Positions 5,027-42,035 of a stretch of DNA of 42,035 nt are shown piece by piece (the stretch's first letter is position 1; every line of letters begins with the position of its first letter). The stretch comes from Nitrospira sp. (GTDB lineage: Bacteria; Nitrospirota; Nitrospiria; Nitrospirales; Nitrospiraceae): the NCBI GenBank assembly GCA_005116955.1, contig SWDI01000005.1, positions 264,928 through 306,962 of the forward strand. Direction: 5' to 3'. The notes beneath the pieces were generated by a model. The model saw nothing but the letters and a program-made list of their open reading frames with translations. It ran no database searches and was not told the DNA's origin. The position numbers and the translations under genes were made by a program.

Positions 5027-5036
5027 CTCTGGCTGG

Positions 5037-6854: not shown

Positions 6855-6938
6855 CGCTTCTATCCACGATCAGTACAGTGCGCGACTCCCACAGTATCGA
6901 TTCTCTTCGGGCGTCAATCCGGACTGTTTTCGTGATCA

Positions 6939-11305: not shown

Positions 11306-11371
11306 GGCAGTCCTCCCCTCGCCACTGTAGGCGTCTATCGTTCTGCTGGGCACGACGAATGTCCACGAAAT

Positions 11372-11800: not shown

Positions 11801-11993
11801 CCATCCGAAGACCGCCGTGCGAGCTGATGAGCGAATTCAACAAGGTATTCTCATCACAGCCTCAGCCTAGCACGATTCTGAATTGTCATCAATCACACGA
11901 GAATGACGAACCAGTCATTGGCGTAGGCCATCGTAAACTCACCTAGCAACATGCGTATGAGACCCATCGGTCCGGCATGAACCAGTCAGAAAC

Positions 11994-12146
11994 TCACCGT
12001 ACATCCTCGAATTCCCAGAAATGCATCGCGGGCATGCCGCGAACGCTGATGGGCGCCGGGATAGCCATGCACGTGATTTCCTCAGGCAGGCTGTCTTTGA
12101 GTGCCTCAAGCGTGACCTCAGCATTCTCATCAAAGGGCGGTTTCAA
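11994..12146 (-). CDS. Possible 50-residue ORF of unknown function
   Basis: A frame from a TTG at 12144-12146 to a TGA at 11994-11996 encodes an acidic peptide beginning LKPPFDENAEVTLEALKDSL and ending MHFWEFEDVR. Its codon pattern and amino-acid composition look coding rather than random. There is no clear ribosome site and an in-frame TAG stands three bases before the TTG-containing codon pair, so it may be a remnant of a longer gene. It lies in the 426-base stretch between the Cu-ATPase and the DUF2946-like gene, where nothing else is recognisable. Confidence 0.3.
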   Translation of the reverse strand: MKPPFDENAEVTLEALKDSLPEEITCMAIPAPISVRGMPAMHFWEFEDVR

Positions 12147-12226
12147 GTCCTACGTGCAACAGGTGAATGAAGGTGAGGGGAACAATTGCACGAGGAGGTG
12201 TACTGTTATTGGATAGTCAAGGCGTG

Positions 12227-14851: not shown

Positions 14852-14902
14852 TATCAACGGGCCTCTTCTCGTCCCCTTCTACTATTCCCCTTTCACTCCT
14901 CA

Positions 14903-19288: not shown

Positions 19289-20845
19289 ATGGCCAGGGCG
19301 ACAAAAATAATCCGGAACTTCTACCGCGACTCCGTCTCGTTGATGCAGCTGTCTTCCACGATTACCAAACTGCCCGGCGTGGAACAAGCGTCGGCCATCA
19401 TGGCCTCTCCCAACAATGTGACACTTCTCGTGGAAGCGGGCCTGTTGGCGAAACCCGTTGAAGCTGGCGCCAACGACTTGTTGATCGCTCTTCAAGGAAA
19501 TGCCGAGGCACTTGAATCGGCGCTTACTGCGGCAGAATCCGCGCTGAAGCAACCTTCCCCTTCGTCGACCGGCAATGAACAATCACGCGGCATGTCTCCC
19601 CGCAGCATCGAGATGGGGCTCGGGAACCTCATCGGCGCAAACCTCGTTTTGATCTCCACGCCGGGCGAGTACGCTGCGGCGGAGGCCTTCAAGGCGTTGG
19701 GGCTCGGCCTCAATGTCATGCTCTTTAGTGACAACATCGAGATCAAGGACGAGATCGCACTCAAACGGTTCGCCCAGGAGCGTGATCTCATTGTCATGGG
19801 CCCGGACTGCGGAACCGCCATTATCAATGGCATCCCGCTTGCGTTCGCGAATGTGGTGCGTCGCGGAGTCATCGGTGTCGTCGCCGCATCTGGCACTGGC
19901 CTCCAACAGGTAACCTGCCTGGTCGACCGATGGGGCAGTGGCATCTCCCAGGCGATCGGAACGGGTGGACACGATCTGCACCGCGATGTCGGCGGTATGT
20001 CCATGCTTCAGGGCCTTAAGGCGCTGGCAGCCGATCCCTCCACCTCCGTGATTGTGCTCATTTCTAAACCTCCGTCACCAGAGGTAGCCAGCAAGGTACT
20101 GGGGGTAGCCAGCGGCGCAGGCAAGCCGGTAGTCGTCAATTTTCTTGGTGCCGATCCCGATCAGGTGAGACGCGGGAATATTTACCCCGCCGCGACACTC
20201 GAGGATGCAGCAGCGGCGGCGGCGGCGCTCGCCAACGGCCAACCTCCCGAAGCCAGGCGAGCGAGTGTGCCCCCTTTTTCCATCACACCTCTTGCTCCGC
20301 AGCAGCGATACGTTCGGGGCCTCTATAGCGGCGGCACCTTTTGCTACGAGGCTTCGCTCATCCTGAAAAAAGAACTGGGGCAGATCAATTCCAACACTCC
20401 AGTGGAGCCAGGGGATCGCTTGAGCGATGTCTGGACCAGTCAAAAGCACACGGTCATTGATCTGGGCGACGATCTCTTCACTCGTGGACGCCCCCATCCC
20501 ATGATCGACCACCGGCTCCGCAATGAGCGGCTGATCAAGGAAGCCAGCGATCCCGAGGTGGCGGTGATCCTGCTGGACGTTGTCCTTGGCTACGGATCTC
20601 ACCCAGATCCTGCCGCTGAAATGGTCCCGGCGATTCAGAAGGCGCGTGATCTTGCCACTAAAGCAGGCAGACATCTGGCCATCATGGGATTCGTCTGCGG
20701 CACAGCAGCGGACCCTCAGAATCTGTCCAGACAGGAAACAGCTTTTCGAGAGGTCGGGGTCACCCTTGCGGAGAGCAACGCTCAGGCTGTGCGCATGGCT
20801 GCCTCTATGGTGCTGGAGGCTGGCGCCGTCGGAGGGCGATTGTGA
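19289..20845 (+). CDS. fdrA: FdrA/AllF, succinyl-CoA-synthetase-like subunit of a carbamoyltransferase
   Basis: The protein has 518 residues, with a GGGGGA site eight bases before the ATG. FdrA has the fold of the succinyl-CoA synthetase alpha and beta halves but lacks the phosphohistidine loop of true synthetases. Visible features are the N-terminal SSTITKLPGVEQASAIMAS segment, a Rossmann-like domain, MGPDCGTAIING near residue 170, AIGTGGHDLHRDVGG near 222, a nucleotide-type loop, and a second half containing VVLGYGSHPDPA. In E. coli it is AllF, one subunit of the oxamate carbamoyltransferase of anaerobic allantoin use. The next gene starts inside its stop (GTGA overlap). No allantoinase, allantoate or ureidoglycolate gene is in the window, so the native substrate may be another ureide. 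Confidence 0.93.
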   Translation: MARATKIIRNFYRDSVSLMQLSSTITKLPGVEQASAIMASPNNVTLLVEAGLLAKPVEAGANDLLIALQGNAEALESALTAAESALKQPSPSSTGNEQSRGMSPRSIEMGLGNLIGANLVLISTPGEYAAAEAFKALGLGLNVMLFSDNIEIKDEIALKRFAQERDLIVMGPDCGTAIINGIPLAFANVVRRGVIGVVAASGTGLQQVTCLVDRWGSGISQAIGTGGHDLHRDVGGMSMLQGLKALAADPSTSVIVLISKPPSPEVASKVLGVASGAGKPVVVNFLGADPDQVRRGNIYPAATLEDAAAAAAALANGQPPEARRASVPPFSITPLAPQQRYVRGLYSGGTFCYEASLILKKELGQINSNTPVEPGDRLSDVWTSQKHTVIDLGDDLFTRGRPHPMIDHRLRNERLIKEASDPEVAVILLDVVLGYGSHPDPAAEMVPAIQKARDLATKAGRHLAIMGFVCGTAADPQNLSRQETAFREVGVTLAESNAQAVRMAASMVLEAGAVGGRL

Positions 20846-29891: not shown

Positions 29892-29912
29892 GACTTCTCA
29901 AACAAGAAGTCC
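29891..29912 (+). terminator. Hairpin at the end of the ureide operon
   Basis: GGACTTCT and AGAAGTCC form a perfect eight-base stem with a CAAACA loop, beginning in the last base of the TAG stop. No U-run follows, so it is a poor intrinsic terminator; it may protect the mRNA 3' end or assist Rho-dependent ending. Confidence 0.4.
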
Positions 29913-30015
29913 CGTATGATGCATACGGTTCAAGGCTACAGCCTCTTCGAATAGGACCGAGCATACGCCGGTTCTGTGGATCAGATTGATTTGTCACGGA
30001 CGCTGGCCAGAATTA

Positions 30016-30048
30016 AAGAGGGAGGTTGCGATTTCGCACCTCCCTCTT
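30016..30048 (-). terminator. Intrinsic terminator of the SmbP-like gene
   Basis: On the minus strand a long stem (AAGAGGGAGGT-GCGA paired with TCGC-ACCTCCCTCTT, one bulged base) is followed by TTTAATTCT. It lies 13 bases after the stop of the gene ending at 30061. It could also stop transcripts arriving from the plus strand, where the bases after the stem are less U-rich. Confidence 0.75.
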
Positions 30049-30060
30049 CCCCGACAGAGT

Positions 30061-30360
30061 TTACTTCGCCTTGCCTTTTGGCTTTGCCGAAGCCTGTTCG
30101 GCATGCGCGAGGGACTCCTCCGCATGCTTCATTGATTCCTTGGCATGTTCAAGCGCTTCCTTCGCGTGAGGGTCGTTGCTGCCCTGTATCGCTTCTTCCA
30201 GATGCTTAATGGCCTCTTTCTCGTGCGCAATTCCTTCCTTCGCGTGCTTGATGGTTTCCTGCACATGCCCAGCGCCCTTGGCAAATGCGACACTCGAAAC
30301 CCCACCCGCGAGAAGACTGCAGACCGCAACCGCAACAACACCAGCTTTCAATTGTGTCAT
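30061..30360 (-). CDS. SmbP-like small periplasmic metal-binding protein
   Basis: The protein has 99 residues from the ATG at 30358-30360 (GGAGGGGG site); the longer frame to 30564 has no export signal at its start. A signal peptide ends at about residue 28 (SSVAFA). The mature protein is an amphipathic helix-rich repeat of the form HAKEA/HLEEA/HAEES with a His about every seven to ten residues, ending in a Lys-rich tail. This resembles SmbP of Nitrosomonas europaea, a four-helix periplasmic protein that binds several copper ions. A role in copper buffering fits the two copper-related groups in the window. It is a single gene with its own terminator. Confidence 0.8.
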   Translation of the reverse strand: MTQLKAGVVAVAVCSLLAGGVSSVAFAKGAGHVQETIKHAKEGIAHEKEAIKHLEEAIQGSNDPHAKEALEHAKESMKHAEESLAHAEQASAKPKGKAK

Positions 30361-30595
30361 ACCCCCTCCACATGGTTTGATTGATGACGTCCGAACCCTG
30401 GGACAAGTATACACAGAGTATGCCCTCAGGCAAACATCATCGTCCCAAGCGTCGCACGCACACAACTTTAGGAAATGGATTGTGCTGTGTGTCCCCGAAG
30501 GGCCAGGGAGTCGGAAGGAGGCAACCACCGACTCCCTGGTCAGGCCTGGAAGAAGAGTGCGCAACTACCAGACCCGTTTCCTTTGATTATCCACC

Positions 30596-30637
30596 GAGTG
30601 ACGCGAGAACGCCGCTGGCGGACTTTTTCAGCATCCT
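30596..30637. repeat. Palindromic intergenic element, right-end fragment (copy C)
   Basis: Forty-two bases match the right arm of copies A and B (GCGAGAACGC-GCTGGCGGA-CTTTTTCAGCATCCT). The left arm is missing, so this copy is truncated. Confidence 0.75.
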
Positions 30638-30664
30638 GTTAGACATCTTCGACAGAAATGAGCC

Positions 30665-30733
30665 GGGGCGGAGGTAGACGGAGGCAACACCTGCGCCCCG
30701 GATCGGTCCGAGCGAGGGGGCGGCTCGACCGGA
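30665..30733. repeat. GC-rich double-hairpin module, copy 1
   Basis: GGGGCG at 30665-30670 pairs with CGCCCC at 30694-30699; a second, decayed stem follows around TCCGAGC and GCTCG. It lies 27 bases after the truncated palindromic element. It resembles copies 2 and 3 in layout and wording, though it is the most degenerate. Confidence 0.55.
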
Positions 30734-30934
30734 CATCGATAGCTCGATACTTCTCGAATGGATCGGAATCATTCAATCATTTCTTCCATCACAGATACAT
30801 GCCGATGATCACAAGTATCCTCAACATCAGGCTCACCAGCACACGGCATTGAGGTACAGTCCTGCCCTGTGAAGACCATAAGAGCCAGGCGCTGACTCGT
30901 ATTGCCGGTACATTAGGCTTGCTGAAAATATAGG

Positions 30935-31004
30935 GCGGGGTAAAGGAGGAGGCAGTCAACCTTCACCCCGCGCTTAGTCCGAGCCGGAGGGCCGCCTGCT
31001 CGGA
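30935..31004. repeat. GC-rich double-hairpin module, copy 2
   Basis: GCGGGGT at 30935-30941 pairs perfectly with ACCCCGC at 30965-30971. TCCGAGC at 30978-30984 pairs with GCTCGGA at 30998-31004 around a CGGAGGGC-type loop. The same second stem and loop recur at 37822-37848. Confidence 0.7.
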
Positions 31005-31090
31005 CGGTTTACCTAAACAGTTTGGTTATGAAATAGACGCACTCAGGCTGCATTCATACCAGCGCGCAGAGCACGGCCACGCGGTACGGA

Positions 31091-31462
31091 TTAGCCAATT
31101 CTGACGAAGAAAACCGAAGGAGGTGCCCGCGAATGGATCGCGGAGGAAGATGTGGCGTAAGGAAGTCCGGCTGAAGTGAATTCTGCTGGCCCACTCACCA
31201 AATCTCTGACAGCTGGTTGTGGGCCACCTTCCGCTATGGTGTCCGCTGTAGCCTGACAAGCCCAGGCACAGAACTGGTCTGTGGCAGATGAGCCGTCGTC
31301 TGCGTGATGGTGATGGTGATCATTCAACACCTGCTGAGCATGCGTAACCATGCAGCTGGCGTTCATCCCCGAAAGCGCCACATAGATCAATGCCACACCG
31401 ACGATCACGGTGTGATGGATCAACCTATCTGGATATTTCCTGTACCTCATCATCGCAATCAT
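31091..31462 (-). CDS. DUF2946-like His-rich small membrane or exported protein (second copy)
   Basis: The frame has 123 codons with candidate starts at codons 1, 4 and 5 and no clear ribosome site. An N-terminal hydrophobic segment (HHTVIVGVALIYVALSGM) is followed by HDHHHHH-like histidines (DHHHHHADDG), then FCAWACQATAD and, near the end, HSRAPPSVFF. The same C-A-W-A-C-Q and S-R-A-P-P elements appear in the protein at 34487-34792. This supports a real family. The gene stands 25 bases downstream of an HTH protein gene on the same strand. A metal-binding role is likely from the histidines and cysteines, but not established. Confidence 0.6.
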   Translation of the reverse strand: MIAMMRYRKYPDRLIHHTVIVGVALIYVALSGMNASCMVTHAQQVLNDHHHHHADDGSSATDQFCAWACQATADTIAEGGPQPAVRDLVSGPAEFTSAGLPYATSSSAIHSRAPPSVFFVRIG

Positions 31463-31487
31463 TTATATGTGAATCTTCAAATACTGT

Positions 31488-31793
31488 CTACCGACGTTTG
31501 CTCATGGATGCTACAGTCGGGTCAAGAAAAGCAGTGGATAGCTTATGAATGTATTGATCGCTGCCATGAACCGCCACATCACTCTGATTCGCTTCAATCA
31601 AACTCGTGATTGAAGCGTGAAAAATGCGCACACTGCCCTTGCCAATCTTTGTCCCTCGTAATCGCCCTTCCTCTACCCATCGATAGATCGTCCAGCGACT
31701 GACTGAGAGCACAGCAGCAGCTTCTCCCACTCGCAGCAATGTTTTTTCCTTGGTGCCAGTCAACGCTCTGCTTGCTTTATCCGTCATAAGCAT
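31488..31793 (-). CDS. Excisionase-type helix-turn-helix DNA-binding protein
   Basis: The protein has 101 residues with an AAGGAGGTG site before the ATG at 31791-31793. Residues 20-65 (LLRVGEAAAVLSVSRWTIYRWVEEGRLRG, given in two parts as GEAAAVLSVSRWTIYRW and VEEGRLRGTKIG) form an HTH_17/MerR-like winged helix of the excisionase family. The tail is unfamiliar. No integrase or phage gene is present, so it is more likely a small transcription regulator or a leftover of a mobile element than an active excisionase. It may control the adjacent DUF2946-like gene. Confidence 0.8.
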   Translation of the reverse strand: MLMTDKASRALTGTKEKTLLRVGEAAAVLSVSRWTIYRWVEEGRLRGTKIGKGSVRIFHASITSLIEANQSDVAVHGSDQYIHKLSTAFLDPTVASMSKRR

Positions 31794-32018
31794 TGCACAC
31801 CTCCTTCATGAACGTGGCAGGTTTCCTTAGTTCTTGAACTGTATGGGCTTCACTCGCTTCGCTCCATCTCTCGCTGAAGAAACAGCACGGGGCAGAGACC
31901 AATGGACATGCGCCTCCACCCCGCACTGGCCGAGAGTTGAAACCACCAAACTCGAACCGATCACCGATCCTTTTATTCCGAGTAAGGGAGTCATGCTTCG
32001 ATCGCTCGTATCACTCTA

Positions 32019-33968
32019 CTAAAAGAGCCCAAGCGTGACACCGCCGTAAATTGCCCGTCCGTATCCAGCGAAGAAAATCTGTTGGCCTGCAGCCGCGGCA
32101 TGATTTTCACCACCGATGACCTGTCCAGAGGCGGCATATTTCGTATCGGCTACGTTATCGACTTCGATAAACACTTTCGCGAATCGGAACCATGACGATT
32201 TTGGAATTTCGATATTCTTGTACACATTGACGTTCCCGATCACATAGGAGGGAAATCCAAACGTATTACTGTTATTCAAGAAATAGCTGTTGGAATAGTT
32301 GCCTTCGATCCACGCGCCCAACCCCGCCGGCGCATGGTAGTACTCCAGCTTGCCGTTCAAGATGTCGGTCGGCACATTCGGCACATGTTTTCCATCACGG
32401 ACCAGGAATCCGGCAGCCGTCCGATCCGAGAAATTAATGTACTCCGAGTCGATATGTGTATAGGCGCCGGAGACCCGCAGCCCCGTCACCGGCCGCCAAT
32501 CGGCGAAGACTTCGACTCCGCGGTACCGGGAAGAGTCGGCATTCACTGAAGCCGTGTTATTCCCGGAAATAACCTGCGTAATGATTTCGTCTTTATAAAA
32601 GGTGTAAAACGCAGCGACATGGACCAACAACGTCGGATGCAGCTTCATCTCCGTGCCGATTTCCAAGTTCAGGTTTTTCTGTGGCTTCAAGCTAAAGTTG
32701 GTGCCAGGTTGCCCTGTGATGGGATCACGCAGCAGGGCAGCGAATTGTGGGATGCCGTACCCGGTCGACGCCCTGATCCAATAGCGGTAGTCAGGTGACG
32801 GTTTCCAGGTGATTGACCCTTCTGGTGCCCAGTTGGAAAAGGTGCGGTTCGCGCTCGAGCGTGAAGCCAACGCACCGGTCGCATCGTAGTTCGTGGCATG
32901 CACGCTGAGGCGAGACTGTTCAAACCCGAGCCCAACCGCCAAGATCCAGTTCGGCAAGAATTCCAATTCCTCGCGGATACGGCCACCGATATTGAAAATG
33001 GACCCACGGCTGTTCTGGATCAACGTCCCTTTGGTCCCAAAGCTATCCGCCAGATTCTGTAAGGAGTTGCCCTTCTGCTCCATTTGATTGACGAAGAAAC
33101 CCACATAGCTCCGCAAAGGCAAGGCCCCCAACTTACCGTCATGACGTAAATCGGCATAGCTCTTGTAGTTGGGGTTCGTGTTCTCGCTCACTTGCGAAAA
33201 TGACTGCTGGATATCCTTGACGTCGTAATCCGCCTCGACGGTCAAGACGGTATTCGCATCGATCTGCCGCTCGTAGATTCCGCCGACAATCGTGCGCCGA
33301 TCGACCCGACTTTGATTGAGCAAAAGCGCATTGGCGCAGCCGCCGCTGAACGTTCCAGGCGTACACGTTGTCTGAGCACCGCCGGCCTGCCGCTCATCGG
33401 AAAAAAACTGATTCTGCGTGAGTCTCGTCGGTACTTTCGTGTTGAGCCAATTGGTGATGGCCTTGAAGTAGAAATTCTGCCGGTCATCGATCTTGTAGCG
33501 AACATTGAAGTTGAGTGTTTGGGTGCTGAAATTGCTGTGCCTGATATAGCCGTCTTCCGATGAATGACTCCCGAACATGGCGATATCGAACTTCTCCGTT
33601 TCCTGACCGATGGCAACCCCGTACTTCTGATATCCATAGGACCCGCCCGAAAAGAAGGTCTCCAGCCCGCGAATGTCGCTGCCTCGCCTGGTGCGGAAGT
33701 GGACCATCCCACCCAACGCATAATTGTCGTACAGGGAGGAGGACGCGCCTCGAATCACTTCCACGCTTCGCATGAACCACGGATCATGAATGTCGAGCCG
33801 CGAAAGGCCGTCGGATTGGGTCTGGATGAATCCGTCTTCGTAGACCTTGATATCCCGAATAGCAAAGGTCGTCTTGGCGCCCTGCCCACGGATCATCATG
33901 CTGAAGTCGCGAGGCCCGTTGGCCTGCCGCAGCACCACACCGGGAAGTGATTCCATGGATTCCTTCAT
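32019..33968 (-). CDS. TonB-dependent outer-membrane receptor, main part (frameshifted from its N-terminus)
   Basis: This 649-codon frame holds most of the plug domain (SLPGVVLRQANGPRDF, MIRGQGAKTTFAIRD, RSVEVIRGASSSLYDNYALGG) and the whole 22-strand barrel, ending in the aromatic residue expected of outer-membrane proteins (TLGLF). It lacks a signal peptide and the first plug strands; these are in the overlapping frame 33965-34381. Joining the two frames near 34000-34030 gives a normal receptor. TonB, a BNR protein and a TlpA-like thioredoxin are encoded upstream on the same strand, so the receptor probably imports a metal chelate energised by that TonB. The substrate (siderophore, copper chelate or other) is not readable. 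Confidence 0.85.
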   Translation of the reverse strand: MKESMESLPGVVLRQANGPRDFSMMIRGQGAKTTFAIRDIKVYEDGFIQTQSDGLSRLDIHDPWFMRSVEVIRGASSSLYDNYALGGMVHFRTRRGSDIRGLETFFSGGSYGYQKYGVAIGQETEKFDIAMFGSHSSEDGYIRHSNFSTQTLNFNVRYKIDDRQNFYFKAITNWLNTKVPTRLTQNQFFSDERQAGGAQTTCTPGTFSGGCANALLLNQSRVDRRTIVGGIYERQIDANTVLTVEADYDVKDIQQSFSQVSENTNPNYKSYADLRHDGKLGALPLRSYVGFFVNQMEQKGNSLQNLADSFGTKGTLIQNSRGSIFNIGGRIREELEFLPNWILAVGLGFEQSRLSVHATNYDATGALASRSSANRTFSNWAPEGSITWKPSPDYRYWIRASTGYGIPQFAALLRDPITGQPGTNFSLKPQKNLNLEIGTEMKLHPTLLVHVAAFYTFYKDEIITQVISGNNTASVNADSSRYRGVEVFADWRPVTGLRVSGAYTHIDSEYINFSDRTAAGFLVRDGKHVPNVPTDILNGKLEYYHAPAGLGAWIEGNYSNSYFLNNSNTFGFPSYVIGNVNVYKNIEIPKSSWFRFAKVFIEVDNVADTKYAASGQVIGGENHAAAAGQQIFFAGYGRAIYGGVTLGLF

Positions 33969-34381
33969 GGTTCTGGACGGCTGCGACTCTGTTTCAGAAG
34001 GAAGCGTCGCGGAAAGCGAGCACCTTCCGGTCTCTTCTGTAGACGCTTGCTGACGATGCTCATATCAGACAGATCGAAATCCGGTTGTGTTTCAGTGGGA
34101 GTGACCATTTCGGCCTCTGCGGAAGGCGACTCGACCTTCTTCTCCTTGATGATGGGTTGGCGCTCCGCTTCCGGTTTCGTCGAATCTTTTTTCTGCTGTA
34201 ACTCGTCCAATTCCTGCAGAATGGTCTTGAGCTGATCGCGCAGCTCTCTCTCACGCGGCAAGGCGGACGGATCGGCAGAAGGCGCTTCTTGCGCGATTCC
34301 TTCGCCTCCGACTGCCAACAACGCGACTAAACCAACTGCCATCGTATATCCCACTCGAAACGCTCGTACCCCTCCAAACAT
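33965..34381 (-). CDS. N-terminal part of the TonB-dependent receptor (separated by a frameshift)
   Basis: The frame has 138 codons and a GGAGGGAG site before its ATG. It encodes a signal peptide (about 1-30), a short coiled-coil linker (RERELRDQLKTILQELDEL), a charged Ser/Pro/Glu linker and the start of a TonB-receptor plug (DLSDMSIVSKRLQKRPEG). After that the frame becomes Arg-rich nonsense (RFPRRFLLKQSRSRPEP). In the next frame the same bases encode LSATLPSETESQPSRT followed directly by MKESMESLPGVVLRQ, which is the expected continuation. A one-base deletion, or a two-base insertion, therefore splits the gene. It may be a sequencing error, a decayed gene, or less likely programmed slippage. 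Confidence 0.75.
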   Translation of the reverse strand: MFGGVRAFRVGYTMAVGLVALLAVGGEGIAQEAPSADPSALPRERELRDQLKTILQELDELQQKKDSTKPEAERQPIIKEKKVESPSAEAEMVTPTETQPDFDLSDMSIVSKRLQKRPEGARFPRRFLLKQSRSRPEP

Positions 34382-34486
34382 GATTGCTCACTCCCTCCAT
34401 GTGGTTGAAAGAAACCGGTCGACGCGGAACCCCCATAAGGATCCCCGTCCATAACCCGACAAACACGATGTGAATCTAGAAGATGA

Positions 34487-34792
34487 TTAGCGAGGCGGCG
34501 CGCGAGAACGAGAAACCGTGCTAACGAGACGGGCTTGGGGGGGTGCGCTCACCAGCCGCTGCATCGTCACGAAGATAATGCTGACGAGGGCTGGTGCGGT
34601 GGCATGAATGCCGACCGTTGGATTTACCTGACAGGCCCAGGCACAAAACATGGAGTGGCCGGCATGAGAAGAACCGTGGTGAGCATGATCCGCCTTGTCT
34701 CTCGGCATGAAGAGACAGCCTGCCGCCCCTACTGCAAGCACGCTGTAGAGCAGGACCATCCCGACAACCAGTGGTGCGAACCAACGCTTCAT
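34487..34792 (-). CDS. DUF2946-like His-rich small exported protein (third copy)
   Basis: The protein has 101 residues. An N-terminal membrane or signal segment (WFAPLVVGMVLLYSVLAVGAAG, given as VVGMVLLYSVLAVGAAG) precedes DKADHAHHGSSHAGHSMF, then FCAWACQVNPTVG, and it ends in SRSRAPPR. Its ATG overlaps the stop of the TlpA-like gene by four bases, so translation is coupled. With the other three members in this window it defines a family of small His/Cys proteins lying next to copper or thioredoxin genes. Confidence 0.7.
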   Translation of the reverse strand: MKRWFAPLVVGMVLLYSVLAVGAAGCLFMPRDKADHAHHGSSHAGHSMFCAWACQVNPTVGIHATAPALVSIIFVTMQRLVSAPPQARLVSTVSRSRAPPR

Positions 34793-35355
34793 GGCATGCC
34801 TTCAAGGACATGCCGCACCAGCGCGGCTGACTCTTCACTATCCCAGGCTCGAGGTCCGACGGCACGACCAATAGCTCGACCGTCTTGTGTAATGAGGACG
34901 GTCGTCGGCAAACCCCGCACCATGAAGGACCTCGAAACGTCTTCATGCTGATCGAACAGCACGGGCAGTCGGATGCCCAGATGATCGAGAAACTGCTTGA
35001 TCCCTAAGGGATGCATGTCCGTGGTAATCGTCACGACCTGAAACTGCGTGGGATCGAACTGTGACTGGAGTTTGGCAAGCGAGGGCATTTCCTCTTTACA
35101 AGGCCCGCACCACGTCGCCCAGAAGTTCAGGAGTACGACCTTCCCTGCCAGTTCTTTGGAGTGGACCGTTCCGCCATCGAGCCCCTGGAGGTCGAACGCT
35201 GCGATCGGTGCACCAGCCGTGATTCGTGTGACACGCAGCGCGGCAAAGGGATCGCTCGCTGCGGTAGCAGCATGTAGCGAAGCGCCGGCGTCAAGAGTCA
35301 GCAGACACCCGGAAAGAAATAGACCACTCAGCAAATCGCGTGTTTTACGGTCCAT
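34789..35355 (-). CDS. TlpA-like periplasmic thioredoxin
   Basis: The protein has 188 residues with an N-terminal signal or anchor (LLSGLFLSGCLLTLDAG). The thioredoxin fold contains NFWATWCGPCKEEMP with Cys83 and Cys86, and a cis-proline in RGLPTTVLI. It belongs to the TlpA/ResA group, which reduce disulfides in exported proteins such as apocytochromes or copper-binding proteins. The start (GGAG three bases upstream) lies 11 bases inside the end of the BNR gene. Its position in a TonB and metal-uptake operon suggests it keeps the cysteines of the following His/Cys protein reduced. Confidence 0.88.
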   Translation of the reverse strand: MDRKTRDLLSGLFLSGCLLTLDAGASLHAATAASDPFAALRVTRITAGAPIAAFDLQGLDGGTVHSKELAGKVVLLNFWATWCGPCKEEMPSLAKLQSQFDPTQFQVVTITTDMHPLGIKQFLDHLGIRLPVLFDQHEDVSRSFMVRGLPTTVLITQDGRAIGRAVGPRAWDSEESAALVRHVLEGMP

Positions 35356-36622
35356 GATCTCCGGTCTTTTCCGCCGTCACGTTGACCAGTGGAAACTGCA
35401 TGGTTTGGAGAACCAGCCGGTGTGCCGGCATGGCATGTTCCTTCCACCCCATCACCACCGTTCCAGACTGATTGACTGCCACTGTCGGCGTCTGTCCATT
35501 TTTCTCGTTCAGCTTGATCGGCGCATTGAACGACCGACCACGATCGAGAGAAAAGCTGGCCACGACCTCCCGGCGAACAGGTGACTGTTCTTCCCAGACC
35601 ACGGCAATCCGTCCTGCCGGATCGACCGCCATCTGCGGATGGTCGGGGAAAGTCCCCTTGGAACGATTGAGCTGTTGCTTGTTTGAAAACGTTTTGCCCT
35701 GATCGTCGGAATAGGCCAGGTAGATCGCAGGCATCTCATCGGCGCCCTCGGTGTACCACACCACATAGAGCCGCCCTTGTCGATCAACCGCGAGGGAGGC
35801 CGGACGATGGGGGCAGGCCGGATAGACCCACCGATCATTGCCGACCACAACCGACGAAGAAAATGTTTCACCGCCGTCAGTCGATCGCGAGACGACAGTC
35901 TCACGAATATTGCCCTCGAAAATCTTTCGCCACGCGACGTAGGCCACTCCATCGGTAGATGTCGCAACTGTCGTCCTGCAGCAGACGCAGGTCTCGTCGT
36001 CGATCTTAAGGTTCTTCGCGATCGTGCGACCCTGATCCGTCGATCTCGCCACGAATGTTCCTGGTTCCTTTTTCCCTTCGCGGCCGTCGATCCAAGCCAT
36101 GTGCACAACCCCATCCGGGGCGACATGAATCGAATCGAACGTGTGCTGAATGACTTGACCGTCGTCGTTCACGAGCACTGATGGTACGAACGTCCGCCCT
36201 CCATCGGTGGATCGGCTGAGCCGCAGCTCTCCGGCAAACGGCTTCTCCGGCGTGATCTTCGGATGCGTCTGCGACCAGGTCACAAACACGTCATTCCCGC
36301 GAATAGCTACAGCTGGAGATTCTTGCCGATAATAGACATACTCGGTTGGCTGGTTGACGGGGACTGGAGTTCCAAGGGGACCACCTGGCTTGTCCGATTT
36401 CGCAAACAAGATCGTGCGGGTTTCCTTCTCTTCCTCCACCCAGGCAGCTGAGATAAATCCTTGGTTATCGATCTGAACCGACGGGCCGACCACGCTCTTC
36501 ACTTGGTGGACGGTCATGCTCTTAGGCCCCAGCCGGATGGCTGGCTCGGACGTCTCAGCCCACGCCGGTATCGCGACAAGCGATGGCAGCATCACAAGGA
36601 GTGCCGCAGCGAATCTCTTCAT
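35345..36622 (-). CDS. Exported BNR-repeat (sialidase-fold) propeller protein
   Basis: The protein has 425 residues from the ATG at 36620-36622 (AGGGGGA site) with a signal peptide ending at WAET. Five Asp-box motifs are visible: SRSTDGGRTF, ARSTDQGRTI, SRSTDGGETF, AYSDDQGKTF and SFSLDRGRSF. They indicate a six-bladed beta-propeller of the sialidase fold. The catalytic arginine triad and Tyr of true sialidases are not evident, so an enzymatic sialidase is unlikely; a periplasmic or surface binding role is more plausible. It lies between tonB and the TlpA-like gene on the same strand. Confidence 0.8.
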   Translation of the reverse strand: MKRFAAALLVMLPSLVAIPAWAETSEPAIRLGPKSMTVHQVKSVVGPSVQIDNQGFISAAWVEEEKETRTILFAKSDKPGGPLGTPVPVNQPTEYVYYRQESPAVAIRGNDVFVTWSQTHPKITPEKPFAGELRLSRSTDGGRTFVPSVLVNDDGQVIQHTFDSIHVAPDGVVHMAWIDGREGKKEPGTFVARSTDQGRTIAKNLKIDDETCVCCRTTVATSTDGVAYVAWRKIFEGNIRETVVSRSTDGGETFSSSVVVGNDRWVYPACPHRPASLAVDRQGRLYVVWYTEGADEMPAIYLAYSDDQGKTFSNKQQLNRSKGTFPDHPQMAVDPAGRIAVVWEEQSPVRREVVASFSLDRGRSFNAPIKLNEKNGQTPTVAVNQSGTVVMGWKEHAMPAHRLVLQTMQFPLVNVTAEKTGDHGP

Positions 36623-36684
36623 CAATCCCCCTTCATGATCGTGAATCTGTTCGAGTCCTTGATGACCATCAAATTCACCCACGC

Positions 36685-37575
36685 TCAGTTGGCTAAACTA
36701 TAGACAATCGGAAGGCTCACAACGATTTGCGGCTTGCCGATGGCATGTTTCATGTGAAGTGGACAGGCGAGTCTCACCGCCTCCATCGCCGCTGCATCGA
36801 GCGCGCTGTATCCCGAGCTTTTCAGGACAAAGACGTCTGCCAAGTGGCCATCAGCACGGATGACCGCCTTCAGAATCACCTTCCCCTCTTGACTATTCAT
36901 GCGGGCCGAATTCGGATAGCGTTTGAGTTCCGCCACCCGCCGCCAGAGCGACTCGGCCAGCCACTGATGATCGATTTTAGCTTCAGCACTCGGTCCAGCA
37001 GCCCTGGTCACCTGCACCGGAGCGGCATCCACAGAACTATCCTGAGACGAAGCGAGTGCGGGAGCCTCTTGAGTAACAGGAGCTTCGGGAGAGGATGGAG
37101 GAGCTGCTGCAACCGACTCTTGCTGAACAGGAGGGGACTCGACCGGTTCGAGAGAAGCAACCACGGCAACCGGCTCGGACTTTGGCTCAGCGACTTCGGC
37201 GATCGATTGCTCAACCGGCTCTTCATGTACCTGAGGACGCTCCACCTTCTGTTCAATTGGTCGGACTGTTTCAATCGTCGGTCGCGGTGGCTCCGCAGCT
37301 TGTGCCGTCGCTCGTATTGGTTGGAGTATCTTCGGTACCGGAGGGGTCGCCTTTGCAGTCGGTTGGGGGGGAGGCACGACCGATTCAACGTGTTCTGTCC
37401 TGGGATTAGGCGTCGTTGCCTCTACCAAGGCCACGTCCCACTGGAAGACCTCCTCAGATAAGAGGGGCTTGACCTGCGTTGCAAACATCACCGCCAACCC
37501 AACCGCGAAGCCGTGCAACGTCAGCGAGATGCCCCAGGCTGGGAAAAAGAACCGATTGTCATCGACCGAGATCAT
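36685..37575 (-). CDS. tonB: TonB-family energy transducer
   Basis: The protein has 296 residues with a GGAAGGA site. It has one N-terminal membrane helix (ISLTLHGFAVGLAVMFAT), a long Pro/Glu/Ala/Val periplasmic spacer of about 150 residues and the TonB C-terminal domain (about 205-290): RVAELKRYPNSARMNSQEGKVILKAVI is split as LKRYPNSARMNSQEGKV then RADGHLADVFVLKSSGYSALD. It carries proton-motive energy to outer-membrane receptors. No exbB or exbD is in the window, so it must borrow a system elsewhere. It is the first gene of the minus-strand group leading to the receptor. Confidence 0.92.
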   Translation of the reverse strand: MISVDDNRFFFPAWGISLTLHGFAVGLAVMFATQVKPLLSEEVFQWDVALVEATTPNPRTEHVESVVPPPQPTAKATPPVPKILQPIRATAQAAEPPRPTIETVRPIEQKVERPQVHEEPVEQSIAEVAEPKSEPVAVVASLEPVESPPVQQESVAAAPPSSPEAPVTQEAPALASSQDSSVDAAPVQVTRAAGPSAEAKIDHQWLAESLWRRVAELKRYPNSARMNSQEGKVILKAVIRADGHLADVFVLKSSGYSALDAAAMEAVRLACPLHMKHAIGKPQIVVSLPIVYSLAN

Positions 37576-37647
37576 GTCGTATGTCCTTCCGCCACTTCAT
37601 AGACCACCACAAACATCAAGGTGCGAGACGATACTAACGCGTCACGC

Positions 37648-37767
37648 AGGATACTCAAAAAGCACGTCCGGCAAGGCCGCAGCGAGCAAAGAGGCGAGAC
37701 GTACGCTTCGGTACGTTGAGCCTCTGAGCGATGCGAGAACGCGGCTGGCGGACTTTTTCAGCATCCT
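37648..37767. repeat. Palindromic intergenic element, copy B
   Basis: The 120-base element has ends AGGATACTCAAAAAG and CTTTTTCAGCATCCT. The centre is a stem ACGTAC-GCTTCG-GTACGT (37699-37716), where copy A has a longer unrelated centre. The arms agree with copy A over most of their length. It is followed after 13 bases by the third GC module. Confidence 0.85.
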
Positions 37768-37780
37768 GCTGAGAAAGTGC

Positions 37781-37848
37781 GGGGCGGAGGCCAAGGGAGG
37801 TGCGCCTCCGTCCCACGCTGATCCGAGCCGGAGGGCAGCCTGCTCGGA
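37781..37848. repeat. GC-rich double-hairpin module, copy 3
   Basis: GGGGCGGAGG at 37781-37790 pairs with CCTCCGTCCC at 37805-37814 (one G-T), and TCCGAGC at 37822-37828 pairs with GCTCGGA at 37842-37848. It directly follows palindromic element B, as copy 1 follows fragment C. Confidence 0.7.
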
Positions 37849-37867
37849 CAAGACACTCTTCTTGCAA

Positions 37868-37969
37868 TCAATCACCTACCCATGGATGGGCAGCCGTGAA
37901 CCCGCTCATCATCACGATGACAAGCAACAATCCCCAAACTATGGCAGGTCGTCTTACGTTCATCGTCAT
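37868..37969 (-). CDS. Possible 33-residue membrane or exported peptide
   Basis: An ATG at 37967-37969, nine bases after the TlpA-like stop and preceded by AGACGG, opens a 33-codon frame. It has a basic start (MTMNVRRPAIVW) and a hydrophobic helix (GLLLVIVMMSGFTAAH), then ends HPWVGD. The shape is that of a small single-helix membrane protein or a bare signal peptide. It is probably cotranscribed with the upstream thioredoxin. I know of no family; conservation is needed to prove it real. Confidence 0.4.
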   Translation of the reverse strand: MTMNVRRPAIVWGLLLVIVMMSGFTAAHPWVGD

Positions 37970-37978
37970 GCCGTCTGG

Positions 37979-38530
37979 TTAGTGCAGAGAGGCCGCCTTC
38001 ATCGCTTCCGGTTTCTGAATCCGTGCCACCGCGTCGAGAATCACCTGCTCAGTCAGCAGACCGCCCTTGATATATTCTTGAACAACGCCCTTTTCGTCGA
38101 TAAACACGCTGACCGGCAATCCGAAGACTCCGAACTGGTTCGCGACTTTGTTGTCTCGATCCATCAACACCGGGAACGTATGCCCGTGTTGCTTGATGTG
38201 CTCTCGCACTTTGACCTCGTCTTCCAGTTCGTTGACTGCCAGCACCACGAAGCCCTTCTCCCGAAGCTTGTCATACGTGGCCTGCATCGCCGGCATTTCC
38301 GTCGTGCAGGGCTTGCACCAGGTCGCCCAAAAGTTCACAAGCACGACCTTGCCCCGATACTGGCTGAGACTCTGCTGCTTGCCTTCCAAATCAACCAAAC
38401 GAAAATCTTCGGCAGCCGTCCCGACCGTAGGGACCCGGGACCCCATCGCCCAGACCAGACTACTGCTGACCACAAGCGTGACGCTGAGGGCGAGCAACCC
38501 AAGCTTGGATGGATGGTGCGTTCTCATCAT
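37979..38530 (-). CDS. TlpA/ResA-like periplasmic thioredoxin, second gene
   Basis: The protein has 183 residues from the ATG at 38528-38530, seven bases after AAGGAG; an ATG at 38548 lacks such a site. A signal or anchor segment covers about 10-28. The active site NFWATWCKPCTTEMP has Cys72 and Cys75, and the fold continues through GVFGLPVSVFIDEKG with the cis-proline. It belongs to the TlpA/ResA group and is only distantly alike the thioredoxin at 34789-35355. The gap 38531-38812 holds nothing recognisable. Disulfide reduction in the periplasm, perhaps for copper or cytochrome maturation, is inferred. Confidence 0.9.
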   Translation of the reverse strand: MMRTHHPSKLGLLALSVTLVVSSSLVWAMGSRVPTVGTAAEDFRLVDLEGKQQSLSQYRGKVVLVNFWATWCKPCTTEMPAMQATYDKLREKGFVVLAVNELEDEVKVREHIKQHGHTFPVLMDRDNKVANQFGVFGLPVSVFIDEKGVVQEYIKGGLLTEQVILDAVARIQKPEAMKAASLH

Positions 38531-38812
38531 TGTCGTCTCCTTACCCACCGTCAGGGATTCGTGATGAACTACTTTTCGTCAACTGGAATGACTTGGTCAC
38601 ACTAAAATCGGTTGTCAATAATCTGAGTGAGTTCCCTGCGAAAGACCATGTAAGAGGTCTGTACCAACAACAGCGAGAATATGGAACGCGTGACTGCCAT
38701 TGATGTCCAGGACTCCCTCTCCCAGGAACAACATCGAATCGCCTACAGAGCGAGGAACCGCCGCGTGGTCACTTACGGCTCAATAGCCCTGACAAACGCG
38801 ACGAAGGCTTAT

Positions 38813-39118
38813 TTATGAGGAGATGGACGGAGGAGCGCGGCTGGAACAGATATGCAGGGGCTCAGAGAAAGAGCTACTGGAATGAACGATCGAAACAAGA
38901 GCGATGGGGTTCCGCTCGGCATGAATCACGACAACTTCAGTGTCGAGGACCGTACCAGCGGCACACATCCAGGAACAGAGCACCGTCCCATGTGTCGCCG
39001 CTTGATGCTGCGCATGATGTCCGGCATGTTCCGCCGATTGCGCTTGCGCCAATCCACCTATAGCGAGGACACATAGCACAAGAGACATCGACAGGAATTT
39101 GCGGAATGTGTGACCCAT
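38813..39118 (-). CDS. DUF2946-like His-rich small exported protein (fourth copy)
   Basis: The protein has 101 residues with a clear signal peptide (SMSLVLCVLAIGGLAQAQS). The mature part has HAGHHAQHQAATHG, then LCSWMCAAGTV and a CSSRAPPSISS ending. The C-S-W-M-C and S-R-A-P-P elements align with the copies at 31091-31462 and 34487-34792. It stands upstream of the second TlpA-like gene on the same strand, though 282 bases away. Confidence 0.65.
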   Translation of the reverse strand: MGHTFRKFLSMSLVLCVLAIGGLAQAQSAEHAGHHAQHQAATHGTVLCSWMCAAGTVLDTEVVVIHAERNPIALVSIVHSSSSFSEPLHICSSRAPPSISS

Positions 39119-39368
39119 GCTAGTAAGGCACTTCCTGAGTAGGACTATATTGACCTAGACATACCTACTGGTGCTATAGATGGGACAGTTCGCAAATAGT
39201 AGGCGACCAGAACAACACCTGTCAAGCCACCGAGGAGAGATACTGCCAGAGGATCAGGTAGGATTCACTGAAAAGATGCTGTATACTGCCTCGGCTATTT
39301 AAGGCACCGACACGTAATACATCTAGAACGACTTTCATCTCACTACATCATTCTCTATTATCATCCCT

Positions 39369-42035
39369 ATGGTTACGAAAGTACTCAATCTGATTTTCGG
39401 CAGCAAAAACGATCGCGAAATCAAAGCTCTACGACCAATCGTGGAGCAGATCAACGGCCTAGAGGCCAGTCTCACTCCACTCTCTGACGAGGCTTTGGCT
39501 GACAAGACTCAGGACTTCAAGAAGCGGCTTGCGGCCGGTCAGACATTGGACGATATCCTCCCCGAAGCCTTTGCCGTCTGTCGGGAAATGTCCCGGCGCA
39601 AGCTCAACATGCGGCATTTCGATGTCCAGCTGATCGGCGGCATGATTCTCAACCGCGGCCGGATCGCCGAAATGAAAACGGGCGAAGGGAAAACGCTCGT
39701 TGCAACATTAGCGATCTATCTGAACGCATTAGAGGGCAAAGGCGCCTATCTGGTCACCGTGAACGATTATCTCGCCAGACGTGACGCACAATGGATGGCC
39801 CAGCTCTATCATGCATTGGGGCTGTCCACCGGAATCATTCAGCACGACGCGTCATTCATCTATGACCCAACATTTGATGCATCCGATAAACGGCTGCAAC
39901 ATCTTCGACCATGCACCAGACCGGAAGCCTATCGCGCCGACATCACCTACGGAACGAACAACGAGTACGGATTCGACTATCTCCGCGATAACCTGGTGGT
40001 CAACGATTTGCGTCAATGTGTCCAGCGCGAGTTGAACTTCGCCATCGTCGACGAAGTTGACAGTATTTTGATCGACGAAGCGCGGACGCCGTTGATCATC
40101 TCGGGCCCGACCGACCAGACCACCGACCTCTATTACCGAATCAACGCGATTATTCCACAACTCAAAGCCGAAACAGACTACACCATCGAAGAAAAGACCA
40201 AGACCGCGTCACTGACGGAAGACGGCAATGTGCGCGTCGAAAAACTACTCGGCGTGGATAATCTGTACGACCCAGCCCACATGGACATGGTTCACCATGT
40301 AGTGAAAGCGTTACAAGCCTACACGCTCTATAAGCGAGACGTGGACTACGTCGTGAAGGACGGCGAAGTCATTATCGTGGATGAGTTTACCGGGCGCTTG
40401 ATGCCGGGCCGCCGGTGGAGCGATGGGCTGCATCAGGCCGTCGAGGCCAAAGAAGGCGTGAAGATCGCCAATGAAAATCAGACGCTTGCATCCGTGACCT
40501 TCCAGAATTATTTCCGCATGTACAAGAAGCTCAGCGGCATGACCGGCACCGCGGATACGGAAGCGGCTGAGTTCGCCAAGATCTACAACCTCGACGTCAA
40601 CGTTGTCCCCACCAACCGCCAAATGATTCGGCAAGATTATGCCGATGTGGTGTATCGGACGGAGAAAGAAAAATTCGCCGCGATTGTCGAAGAGATCAAA
40701 GACTGTCAGGAGCGTGGCCAGCCGGTGCTCGTTGGGACCATTTCCATTGAGAAATCTGAAAAAATTGCGGGCCTGCTAAGCCGCAATGGTGTGAAACATA
40801 ACGTCCTCAACGCGAAGCAGCATGAGCGAGAAGCCGAAATCGTCGCGCAAGCCGGGCGCAAAGGCGCGGTGACGATCGCCACCAACATGGCCGGACGCGG
40901 AACCGATATTCTGTTGGGCGGCAATCCTGATTTCATGTACAAGCAAGTCCTCTATCGAGAGGAGAACATCGCCGAGAGCCGCAAGCTCGAAATTTATGAA
41001 GGCATCCGGTCCGACTGTGCGAAGGATAAGCAGGATGTCATCGCGGCTGGCGGGCTTCACATCCTCGGCACCGAACGGCACGAGAGTCGCCGGATCGACA
41101 ATCAGCTTCGTGGACGGGCCGGTCGCCAGGGTGATCCAGGTACCTCTCGATTTTACCTGTCGTTGGAAGACGACCTGATGCGCATCTTCGCCTCCGAACG
41201 AGTGTCTCAGTTGATGCTCAAGCTCGGGATGGAAGAAGGAGTGCCCATCGAACACGGTATGGTAACCCGCGCAATCGCGAATGCGCAGAAGAAGGTCGAA
41301 GCCCATAACTTTGAAATCCGCAAGCAGCTCCTCGAATACGATGATGTCATGAACAAGCAGCGTGAAGTGATCTATCGTCACCGTCGTGCCGTACTGAGCG
41401 GAGAGAACTTGACCAACGATCTGCATGACATGATGGGAAGCTCGGTGGAATCGTCTCTTAGCGTGTATTGCCCCCCCGAACAATACCCGGAAGAGTGGGA
41501 CGTCAAAGGTTTGACCGAAGTCATGCATGGCCAGTTCGGCCTGGATATCACACAGGGCAAGCATGACGGTGGAGATTCTCTCCGGGATGTCGGGCGTGAT
41601 GCCTTACTGGAGGACCTTCGCACCCATGTTCGGGACGCCTATACCAAGAAGGAGCAAGAGCTGGGGCCTGACCTGATGCGCTTTCTTGAGAAGACATTCA
41701 TGCTCCAGGTCATCGATCATCATTGGAAGGACCATCTGTTAGGGATGGACCACTTGCGAGACGGCATCGGCCTTCGTGGCTACGGACAGAAAGATCCATT
41801 AGTTGAGTATAAGCGTGAGGGGTTCGATCTGTTCGCCGGCATGATGGACCGGGTCAAATCCGACACGCTTGATCGGCTCTTCCACGTGCAGGCCGTCCGC
41901 CATGAAGGTGAACAGTCGGCTCCTCCGCCGCAACCGATTATTTCGCAACCACCGCCCAAACTCATCTTGAACCGCGGCGACGAACCAATCACAGCACAGG
42001 CCCCCGCCCAGAGGACAGAAAACAAGGTTGGCCGT
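39369..42035 (+). CDS. secA: Preprotein translocase ATPase SecA (3' end beyond the window)
   Basis: 889 codons are present and the frame is open to the window's last base. SecA drives protein export through SecYEG. Visible features are Walker [11 protein letters not shown] (102-110), the DEAD-type box [13 protein letters not shown] (about 227-239), the preprotein cross-linking region, helicase motif [34 protein letters not shown], and the helical scaffold with [15 protein letters not shown]. The usual C-terminal zinc motif is not reached. The ATG has no obvious ribosome site. TATACT at 39282-39287 may be its -10 box. Parts of the 250-base gap before it show nothing else. Confidence 0.97.

Follow-up and report, generated by a model that had tools for sequence, protein, structure and literature searches.

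Candidate nascent-peptide copper sensors in a putative copper-uptake gene set of Nitrospira

Why should a small His- and Cys-rich protein be encoded between a thioredoxin and a TonB-dependent receptor? The question is raised by a 42,035-nucleotide (nt) stretch of a Nitrospira sp. genome (contig SWDI01000005.1, positions 264,928 to 306,962; hereafter the window), in which a preliminary description had combined TonB, a propeller, a thioredoxin, a His/Cys protein and a receptor into one uptake unit. That reading overlooked that the window also contains two paralogues of the His/Cys open reading frame (ORF), and that all three end in Arg-Ala-Pro-Pro (RAPP), a published ribosome-arrest motif (PMC10951233; this and the other papers are cited for the portions available). 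Judged by their sequences, these ORFs are most likely translated regulatory leaders and not components of the uptake machinery, as the His/Cys protein had been taken to be. The locus as a whole probably serves copper uptake under the control of nascent-peptide sensors, with copper-gated expression of the receptor module. We coined the names CruR1, CruR2 and CruR3 for the three leader ORFs of the window:

38813..39118, minus strand: leader ORF CruR3, 101 amino acids (aa), with a hydrophobic N-terminus, a His cluster, CSWMC at 38963-38977, a 41-residue linker and RAPP at 38828-38839.
34487..34792, minus strand: leader ORF CruR2, 101 aa, the earlier His/Cys protein, with CAWAC at 34631-34645, a 42-residue linker and RAPP at 34493-34504.
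31091..31462, minus strand: leader ORF CruR1, 123 aa, with a five-His run, CAWAC at 31256-31270, a 42-residue linker and RAPP at 31118-31129.

All three share a hydrophobic N-terminus (read from the sequence by eye), a His cluster, the box C-[AS]-W-x-C and the C-terminal RAPP. The same architecture recurs in the wider family. Across the window and 49 further loci, C-x3-C together with R[AG]PP is present in 133/134 members assigned by phmmer alone, the exception falling in a run of N in locus L083. Six further leaders, found by the motif alone, are similar to one another and all lie ahead of one kind of gene. The motif pattern permitted linkers of 34-52 residues and C-x2-C as well as C-x3-C; all 139 leaders have C-x3-C and a linker of exactly 41 (n = 65) or 42 (n = 74) residues, with an end motif of RAPP in 98 and RGPP in 41. 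R[AG]PP sits 1-8 residues from the stop in 138 of them and 25 residues away in one. Linker length is constant within each of the three leader types (130 unique leaders), and linkers share on average 25% pairwise identity in the CruR2 type (n = 53), 22% in the CruR3 type (n = 65) and 29% in the CruR1 type (n = 12); for these identities three leaders identical over the last 70 residues were removed, leaving 136/139 unique leaders, 130 of them in the three named groups. The only invariant columns in an alignment of 39 diverse leaders are C50, C54, R97, P99 and P100.

The end motif is rare elsewhere. R[AG]PP occurs at most 8 residues from the end in 5/5586 other ORFs (at least 50 aa) and anywhere in 1/321 labelled neighbour genes. 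The set of 5586 omits ORFs below 260 aa with the full motif, which were counted as leaders, and is therefore silent on the frequency of the full motif outside the family; for that, the figure is the six leaders that only the motif brought in. The leader reading frames are under purifying selection, as computed for CruR2 and CruR3 of the three: the ratio of nonsynonymous to synonymous substitution rates (dN/dS) is 0.10 for CruR2 when compared with L037 and 0.26-0.41 when compared with four relatives that are more distant, and 0.09-0.16 for CruR3 against three relatives. Together, these data agree with a ruler that spans the distance from a metal box to the peptidyl-transferase centre, and agree poorly with an ordinary mature protein.

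The nearest described counterpart is CruR (DUF2946), a copper-responsive upstream ORF (uORF) of Bordetella pertussis that lies ahead of bfrG/crtA, a TonB-dependent receptor gene. There, copper relieves arrest at RAPP, Rho-dependent termination follows, and the leader end carries a C-over-G bubble (PMC9426467). The arrest of CruR has been shown in vitro (PMC12992588) and structures of RAPP arrest have been published. The Nitrospira leaders resemble CruR in being small exported-type ORFs with a Cys box and a C-terminal RAPP at a conserved distance from it, and in having a TonB-dependent receptor downstream, beyond a gap of more than 100 nt that follows a C-over-G stretch at the leader end. They differ in the box (C-x3-C against C-x2-C in CruR) and in their arrangement: several leaders share a locus, and CruR2 lies inside the operon and overlaps the preceding gene, whereas CruR takes the first position (PMC9426467). 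At the level of profiles the relation is distant. PF11162 (DUF2946) gives 13.6 and 16.3 bits for two of the window leaders (E 0.017 for CruR1) and no match for the third, against a gathering cut-off of 23.7; matches at E 0.01 occur in 11/39 genomes and exceed the cut-off in 0/39.

RAPP and RGPP peptides are known more widely. The arrest peptides ApdA and ApdP have been described for protein-localization genes (PMC10951233, PMC12992588), and the Nitrospira leaders are like RAPP/RGPP arrest peptides generally in carrying the motif near the C-terminus of a small exported-type protein ahead of another gene. RAPP/RGPP uORFs have been reported across phyla ahead of TonB-, copper- and thioredoxin-related genes (PMC12992588), and TonB-related, copper-related and thioredoxin genes likewise follow the leaders found here. 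The preliminary description, aware of no described system with exactly this set of parts, passed over CruR/CutF: a CruR leader before a TonB-dependent receptor (PMC9426467) and thioredoxin-domain genes downstream of RAPP/RGPP ORFs (PMC12992588) are both in print. In the main text of PMC12992588, Nitrospir- is named once, within the analysis of motif frequency. We recognised no Nitrospira precedent for the leaders among the matches listed by the literature searches, which did not extend to supplementary tables, where one may have been published without remark. What we did not find described in these listings is the Nitrospira variant, with its serial and internal leaders, an exact ruler of 41/42 residues combined with C-x3-C, and an exchange of Cys for His beside zinc genes.

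We infer a course of events for copper uptake that would run as follows. Transcription would probably start 5' of CruR3 and continue in one transcript through thioredoxin 1, TonB, the propeller, thioredoxin 2, CruR2 and the receptor. Each leader would be translated and its export begun, and the ribosome would stall at Arg-Ala/Gly-Pro-Pro with one Pro in the P site and one in the A site; the second Cys of C-x3-C would then be 44-45 residues off, about where the chain exits the tunnel. When copper is poor, the stalled ribosome would cover the C-rich end of the leader, block the loading of Rho and allow the downstream gene to be made (the receptor, or thioredoxin 1 onward). When copper is rich, Cu on the Cys box would pull or fold the emerging chain and relieve the stall, the ribosome would come off, and Rho would terminate transcription in the intergenic region. 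With CruR2 placed within the operon, the receptor could be dropped while TonB, the propeller and the thioredoxins are kept.

Features of the mRNA bear on this course. The excess of C over G is above zero at the stop codon of 139/139 leaders, including all 49 CruR2 leaders profiled; for seven neighbour genes its mean at the stop is below zero. At the first Pro of the end motif, CCT is used in 67/139 leaders against a background of 14%, and CCG in 25/139 against 55%. The C-over-G stretch at the leader ends is compatible with Rho-dependent termination, and a rho gene is present. We found no intrinsic-terminator match in the CruR2-receptor gap (34382-34486), and a search of Rfam over 29900-39400 gave no match at the gathering threshold, so no known riboswitch was detected there. 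Terminator-like sites in the region number three against 8.4 expected.

The remaining parts of the module, which occupies 30-39 kb of the window on the minus strand, are given here in the order of transcription:

39196..39225, minus strand: promoter-like site TTGACA-18-TACTAT 5' of leader CruR3, 10/12 matches.
37979..38548, minus strand: thioredoxin 1, TlpA/ResA-like, periplasmic, WCKPC (PF00578, 4.5e-32).
36685..37575, minus strand: TonB, 296 aa (PF03544, 2.3e-15; TIGR01352 over cut-off).
35345..36622, minus strand: sialidase-like beta-propeller (BNR), exported-type (PF13088).
34789..35355, minus strand: thioredoxin 2, TlpA/ResA-like, periplasmic, WCGPC (PF00578/PF08534).
34382..34486, minus strand: CruR2-receptor intergenic region, 105 nt, beginning within the C-over-G stretch.
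33965..34381, minus strand: N-terminal part of the receptor gene, 138 aa (tblastn with residues 1-120 of the L038 receptor).
32019..33968, minus strand: TonB-dependent receptor, plug and barrel, 649 aa (PF00593, 5.6e-32; PF07715, 5.5e-11; 93% identity to residues 121-788 of L038).
31488..31793, minus strand: excisionase-type helix-turn-helix (HTH) protein (PF12728, TIGR01764), adjoining the 3' side of the receptor in many loci.
30061..30360, minus strand: small metal-binding protein, SMBP (PF16785, 36.2 bits against a cut-off of 29).

CruR3 comes first, followed by thioredoxin 1, TonB, the propeller, thioredoxin 2 and CruR2; 3' of CruR2 on the same strand are the receptor in two pieces, the HTH protein, CruR1 and SMBP. 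Of the five genes that the preliminary description had placed within 34487-37575, TonB, the propeller, a thioredoxin and the His/Cys ORF are indeed there, and the receptor lies outside, at 32019-34381, and is frame-shifted. Overlap between genes is also borne out, in two places and not one: the propeller and thioredoxin 2 genes share 11 nt, and the start of CruR2 overlaps the stop of thioredoxin 2 by 4 nt. A script found this 4-nt overlap in 44/45 cases, and the 45th (L079) reads ATGATG by eye. With its start inside the stop of thioredoxin 2, CruR2 is therefore an internal, overlapping leader. A single residue separates its RAPP from its stop, and the next gene begins after 105 nt. The corresponding distances are 264 nt from CruR3 to thioredoxin 1 and 730 nt from CruR1 to SMBP (all from coordinates); SMBP is an uncertain member of the same transcript. 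The promoter-like site is weak alone, since the motif search returned six sites against 5.0 expected. Alignment of the window with 13 loci hand-picked from 49 places TTGACA 5' of CruR3-type leaders in 13/14 (TTGACT in L050), followed by TAxxAT in 14/14.

The positions of leaders in other loci follow similar lines. A downstream ORF was found for 135/139 leaders (three have none and one is at a contig end). The receptor comes next after the CruR2-type leader in 49/56 cases, one of these receptors being cut by N, and the median gap is 109 nt (49 pairs). CruR3-type leaders precede TonB in 19 cases, the propeller and thioredoxin 1 in 8 each and other genes in 30; an outer-membrane-type protein is encoded by many of these other genes, and the one representative tested matches PF13557. 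After CruR1-type leaders we found the receptor (2), SMBP (1), other genes (5), no gene (3) and a contig end (1).

The gene order was compared in 50 loci, namely the window and 49 loci from a scan of a genome collection. Because they are related to one another, the counts represent non-independent events. TonB, propeller, thioredoxin 2, CruR2 and receptor follow in this order in 42/50 loci as scored by script, a count conditional on the propeller because the loci were fetched with it. Receptor and TonB are thus parts of one conserved unit, as had been proposed, and the arrangement is not peculiar to this genome. Among the eight exceptions, L059, L063 and L081 stop at a contig edge and L084 starts within the propeller; in L043 and L060 an ORF start called too far 5' is an artefact; in L082 thioredoxin and propeller are swapped, and L085 is an unrelated weak match. 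The 49 scan loci are titled Nitrospira, Nitrospiraceae or Nitrospirota, except L085 (a planctomycete, weak) and L070 (Nitrosospira). The module is not universal: propeller matches with E < 1e-100 occur in 18/35 genomes of the genus searched, the genome studied here included, and the search found none in G019, where other leaders are still present. In L037, a close relative, the places of the window's 264-nt and 403-nt gaps are taken by an outer-membrane-type gene and an extra leader.

The propeller itself may take part in handling metal. Residues C213, C215, C216, C271, H161 and H273 are invariant in an alignment of 28 sequences that includes four relatives about 40% identical (numbering of the 426-residue version, which starts one codon earlier), and give the pattern C-x-C-C with one further Cys 55 residues on. 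The AlphaFold2 model has a mean predicted local distance difference test (pLDDT) score of 86.5, and fold searches returned only generic matches to sialidase/lectin propellers. These residues could bind Cu(I), with the TlpA-like thioredoxins keeping the site reduced, and thioredoxin may act in periplasmic reduction. The best NCBIfam match of thioredoxin 1 is ResA (146.4 bits against a cut-off of 170).

Several observations weigh against a copper-gated module of this kind. An excess of C over G is not exclusive to leader ends; the lowest CruR2 value (n = 49) is reached by 33% of secA, 23.6% of propeller and 14.6% of TonB stops. A terminator-like site lies within CruR3 (38899-38917, minus strand). 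The linker of 41/42 residues, equally invariant, is shorter than that of CruR (about 45, within one or two), and the Cys box is different as well. In folds of 48 CruR2-receptor pairs (one 402-nt gap, an artefact of start choice, was omitted from the 49), the Shine-Dalgarno (SD) region of the receptor is mostly paired, the unpaired value being below 0.3 in 35/48, and duplexes of the RAPP codons with SD regions are stronger than those of a segment 60 nt upstream (-15.6 vs -13.9 kcal/mol). The receptor gene is frame-shifted in this very genome, and its product is closest to PqqU and not to copper receptors. The direction of the response could also be reversed, since CutF of Rhodobacter capsulatus works in the opposite sense.

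The frameshift affects the receptor at a single point. The gene (32019-34381) is split by an apparent one-base shift near 34022, its counterpart in L038 is a single ORF of 788 aa, and most loci of relatives have an undivided receptor ORF of about 750-830 aa; the shift may be a true lesion or an assembly error. The idea of repeated receptor loss, raised by a seemingly truncated receptor in L037, was dropped on account of a run of N in that contig.

The affinities of the receptor bear on what is imported. We found all siderophore cut-offs missed (TIGR01783 scores 114-118 bits against 223.5), in agreement with the expectation that this is not a known siderophore type. PqqU is the nearest solved structure (1.3e-55 over most of the receptor), and PqqU/YncD (6v81, 9c4o) remains the best solved relative across plug and barrel. 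The receptor differs from PqqU in about 100 extra N-terminal residues (the match runs from residue 133 of the L038 receptor and 31 of the profile) and in the RAPP leader in front of it, and an identification as PqqU was rejected at 175-201 bits against a cut-off of 1200 for the equivalog NF041535. The copper receptor CrtA (9RVQ/9RVX; PMC12914433) is likewise found behind a CruR-type leader; 9RVQ gives a weak and partial match (3.9e-9), and CrtA has a PepSY_TM neighbour instead of a propeller and thioredoxins (PMC12914433). As to the copper receptors OprC and CrtA, no model named for copper uptake is among the NCBIfam matches of the receptor, and the library was not checked for one. Copper as the cargo therefore rests on the leader and the context. 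The link to copper in the earlier idea of copper-chelate uptake stands, and its basis has shifted mainly to the leader, away from the receptor. The module could instead import a quinone resembling pyrroloquinoline quinone or an unrelated chelate, copper merely regulating it since the cargo serves copper enzymes, as the much closer match to PqqU than to CrtA would allow. We regard this as unlikely, because the score is far under the PqqU cut-off and a propeller with four invariant Cys better suits metal handling; it concerns the cargo and is compatible with the leader reading.

CutF offers a different logic for the leaders themselves. In R. capsulatus, CutF opens a hairpin that hides the SD, and copper promotes expression (PMC9973294). 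Transferred to this locus, copper would prolong the stall, the mRNA structure hiding the ribosome-binding site of the receptor would open, and copper would turn the gene on. The C-x3-C box is that of CutF, and leader size, end motif, gap and strand match the filters for CutF-like proteins (PMC9973294); the pairing of SD regions and RAPP codons reported above points the same way. The controls do not. Shuffling the upstream sequence hardly loosens the SD (unpaired 0.23, vs 0.21 with the native sequence), and RAPP codons form weaker duplexes with their own receptor SD than when cross-paired (-15.6 vs -16.4 kcal/mol, permutation p 0.99). Both an SD-hiding hairpin and an anti-SD function of the RAPP codons were rejected as candidates; a specific SD-shielding hairpin finds no support in these tests, a difference from CutF, and seems improbable. 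An importer raised by copper would also be odd physiology, and we consider a CutF-type switch decidedly unlikely. The CruR logic appears favoured because of the C-over-G stretch, the unsupported hairpin, the lack of a match in Rfam or to a terminator in the gap, and the presence of rho.

The leaders could also sense the thiol/disulfide state of the periplasm, through oxidation of CxxxC, or export, with the thioredoxins as matched outputs and copper uninvolved. The unit does contain two TlpA-like thioredoxins, and RAPP/RGPP ORFs 5' of thioredoxin genes have been published (PMC12992588). The His cluster next to the Cys box, the receptor, TonB, SMBP and HMA-like (below cut-off) neighbours, and the exchange of Cys for His in leaders beside CobW/ZIP genes point to a metal, which makes thiol or export sensing quite improbable. 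That the His/Cys ORFs simply encode periplasmic proteins that bind copper for the uptake system, as chaperones or buffers, with an incidental RAPP, is very improbable, because, for all their hydrophobic N-terminus, His clusters, two Cys and a frame under purifying selection, R[AG]PP is rare in other ORFs, its distance is fixed over an unconserved linker, and leaders precede genes as different as those for the receptor, TonB, thioredoxin and an outer-membrane protein.

Copper-type leaders are one part of a wider family. By alignment search at E 0.001, leaders are present in 58/59 genomes of the bacterial family, with 1-9 per genome. At E 0.0001 they are found in 51/148 genomes of the phylum, all 51 of the same class, and this search detected no leader in genomes sharing only the phylum. 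Of the seven profile matches in the genome studied here, three fall in the window, a fourth lies beyond secA, contig C2 has one and C6 has two. Both C6 leaders deviate in the box. The first (L096, 1287-1616; C6:140286-140612) is a RAPP leader with the box ICQWVQHH (C-x-W-x2-H-H) and a distance from Cys to Arg of 47, ahead of a TonB-dependent receptor. It has clear orthologues (E < 1e-20) in 54/58 genomes of the genus; at E 0.001 the count is 56 genomes, including one 39-residue fragment and one of the other C6 type. Box, distance and adjoining receptor are kept in the 48 loci read (40 genomes; L111-L140, L153-L170), and a further copy in L174 (G030) has H-N instead of H-H. The second (L095, 1047-1448; C6:94639-94944; also L141-L151) is an RGPP leader with the box VCAWLDH (C-x-W-x-D-H) at a distance of 46. 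FUR-family and CobW genes flank it and ZIP is near; ALAD is about 7 kb on, and amidohydrolase genes are also found further on. In the 11 loci of this type read, FUR is upstream in 11/11 and CobW downstream in 10/11, the eleventh being cut.

Small RGPP-ending ORFs with Cys-free boxes (NHAWLDH, IHAWLEW, DHAWLDH) occur as well; NHAWLDH in L171 is at distance 46 by eye. The ORFs with Cys-free boxes are:

L171, 4303-4656
L172, 14782-15132
L173, 15861-16211
L174, 9672-9986

In leaders beside CobW/ZIP/FUR genes, His takes the position of the second Cys without a change of distance, which suggests zinc versions of the leader, zinc being read from the context alone; the L096 leader is a possible zinc sensor. 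His-only members of the CutF-like families adjoin HupE/UreJ, and the main text of that paper does not mention zinc (PMC9973294). We tentatively propose, at a little less than even confidence, that Nitrospira possesses one modular nascent-chain metal sensor, made of a fixed ruler of 46-47 residues (first ligand to Arg), RAPP/RGPP and exchangeable boxes (C-x3-C for copper; C-x-W-x2-H-H or C-x-W-x-D-H for zinc; Cys-free HAW), that acts in series to gate each stretch of genes. If so, arrest peptides gated by zinc would constitute a new class. The metal selectivity of such sensors could be tested directly through the Cys-to-His exchange seen next to zinc genes.

Nitrospira are important nitrite oxidisers, and the locus gives a handle on how they may obtain copper. 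The literature found holds two proteobacterial cases of metal sensing by a stalled nascent chain, CruR and CutF, with opposite logic, in the portions available. The 139 leaders of Nitrospira form a large natural series in which the linker drifts in sequence and not in length, and the idea of a tunnel ruler is therefore testable by comparison. Internal and serial leaders would show stepwise metal control within one transcript.

Two further leaders of this genome lie outside the window. The plus strand from 39369 carries what we take, from its sequence, to be secA, and beyond it is a fourth copper-type leader (L093, 3386-3715; C5:307397-307690) that points toward the secA end and has no obvious downstream gene; it is perhaps an orphan or remnant. 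On contig C2 (L094, 2105-6855), a CruR1-type leader heads a second gene set, which encodes HTH-like, outer-membrane-type, lipoprotein-like (526 aa) and TPR-like proteins; all but the HTH-like protein were named by eye. Within the window, genes for CopB, a multicopper oxidase, CusA/CusB-type proteins and a metal P-type ATPase lie on one strand at 4148-14857. A 48-nt repeat occurs at 30591-30638 and 37721-37768, the two copies being 90% identical, and related stretches are present in L037 at about 19643-19757.

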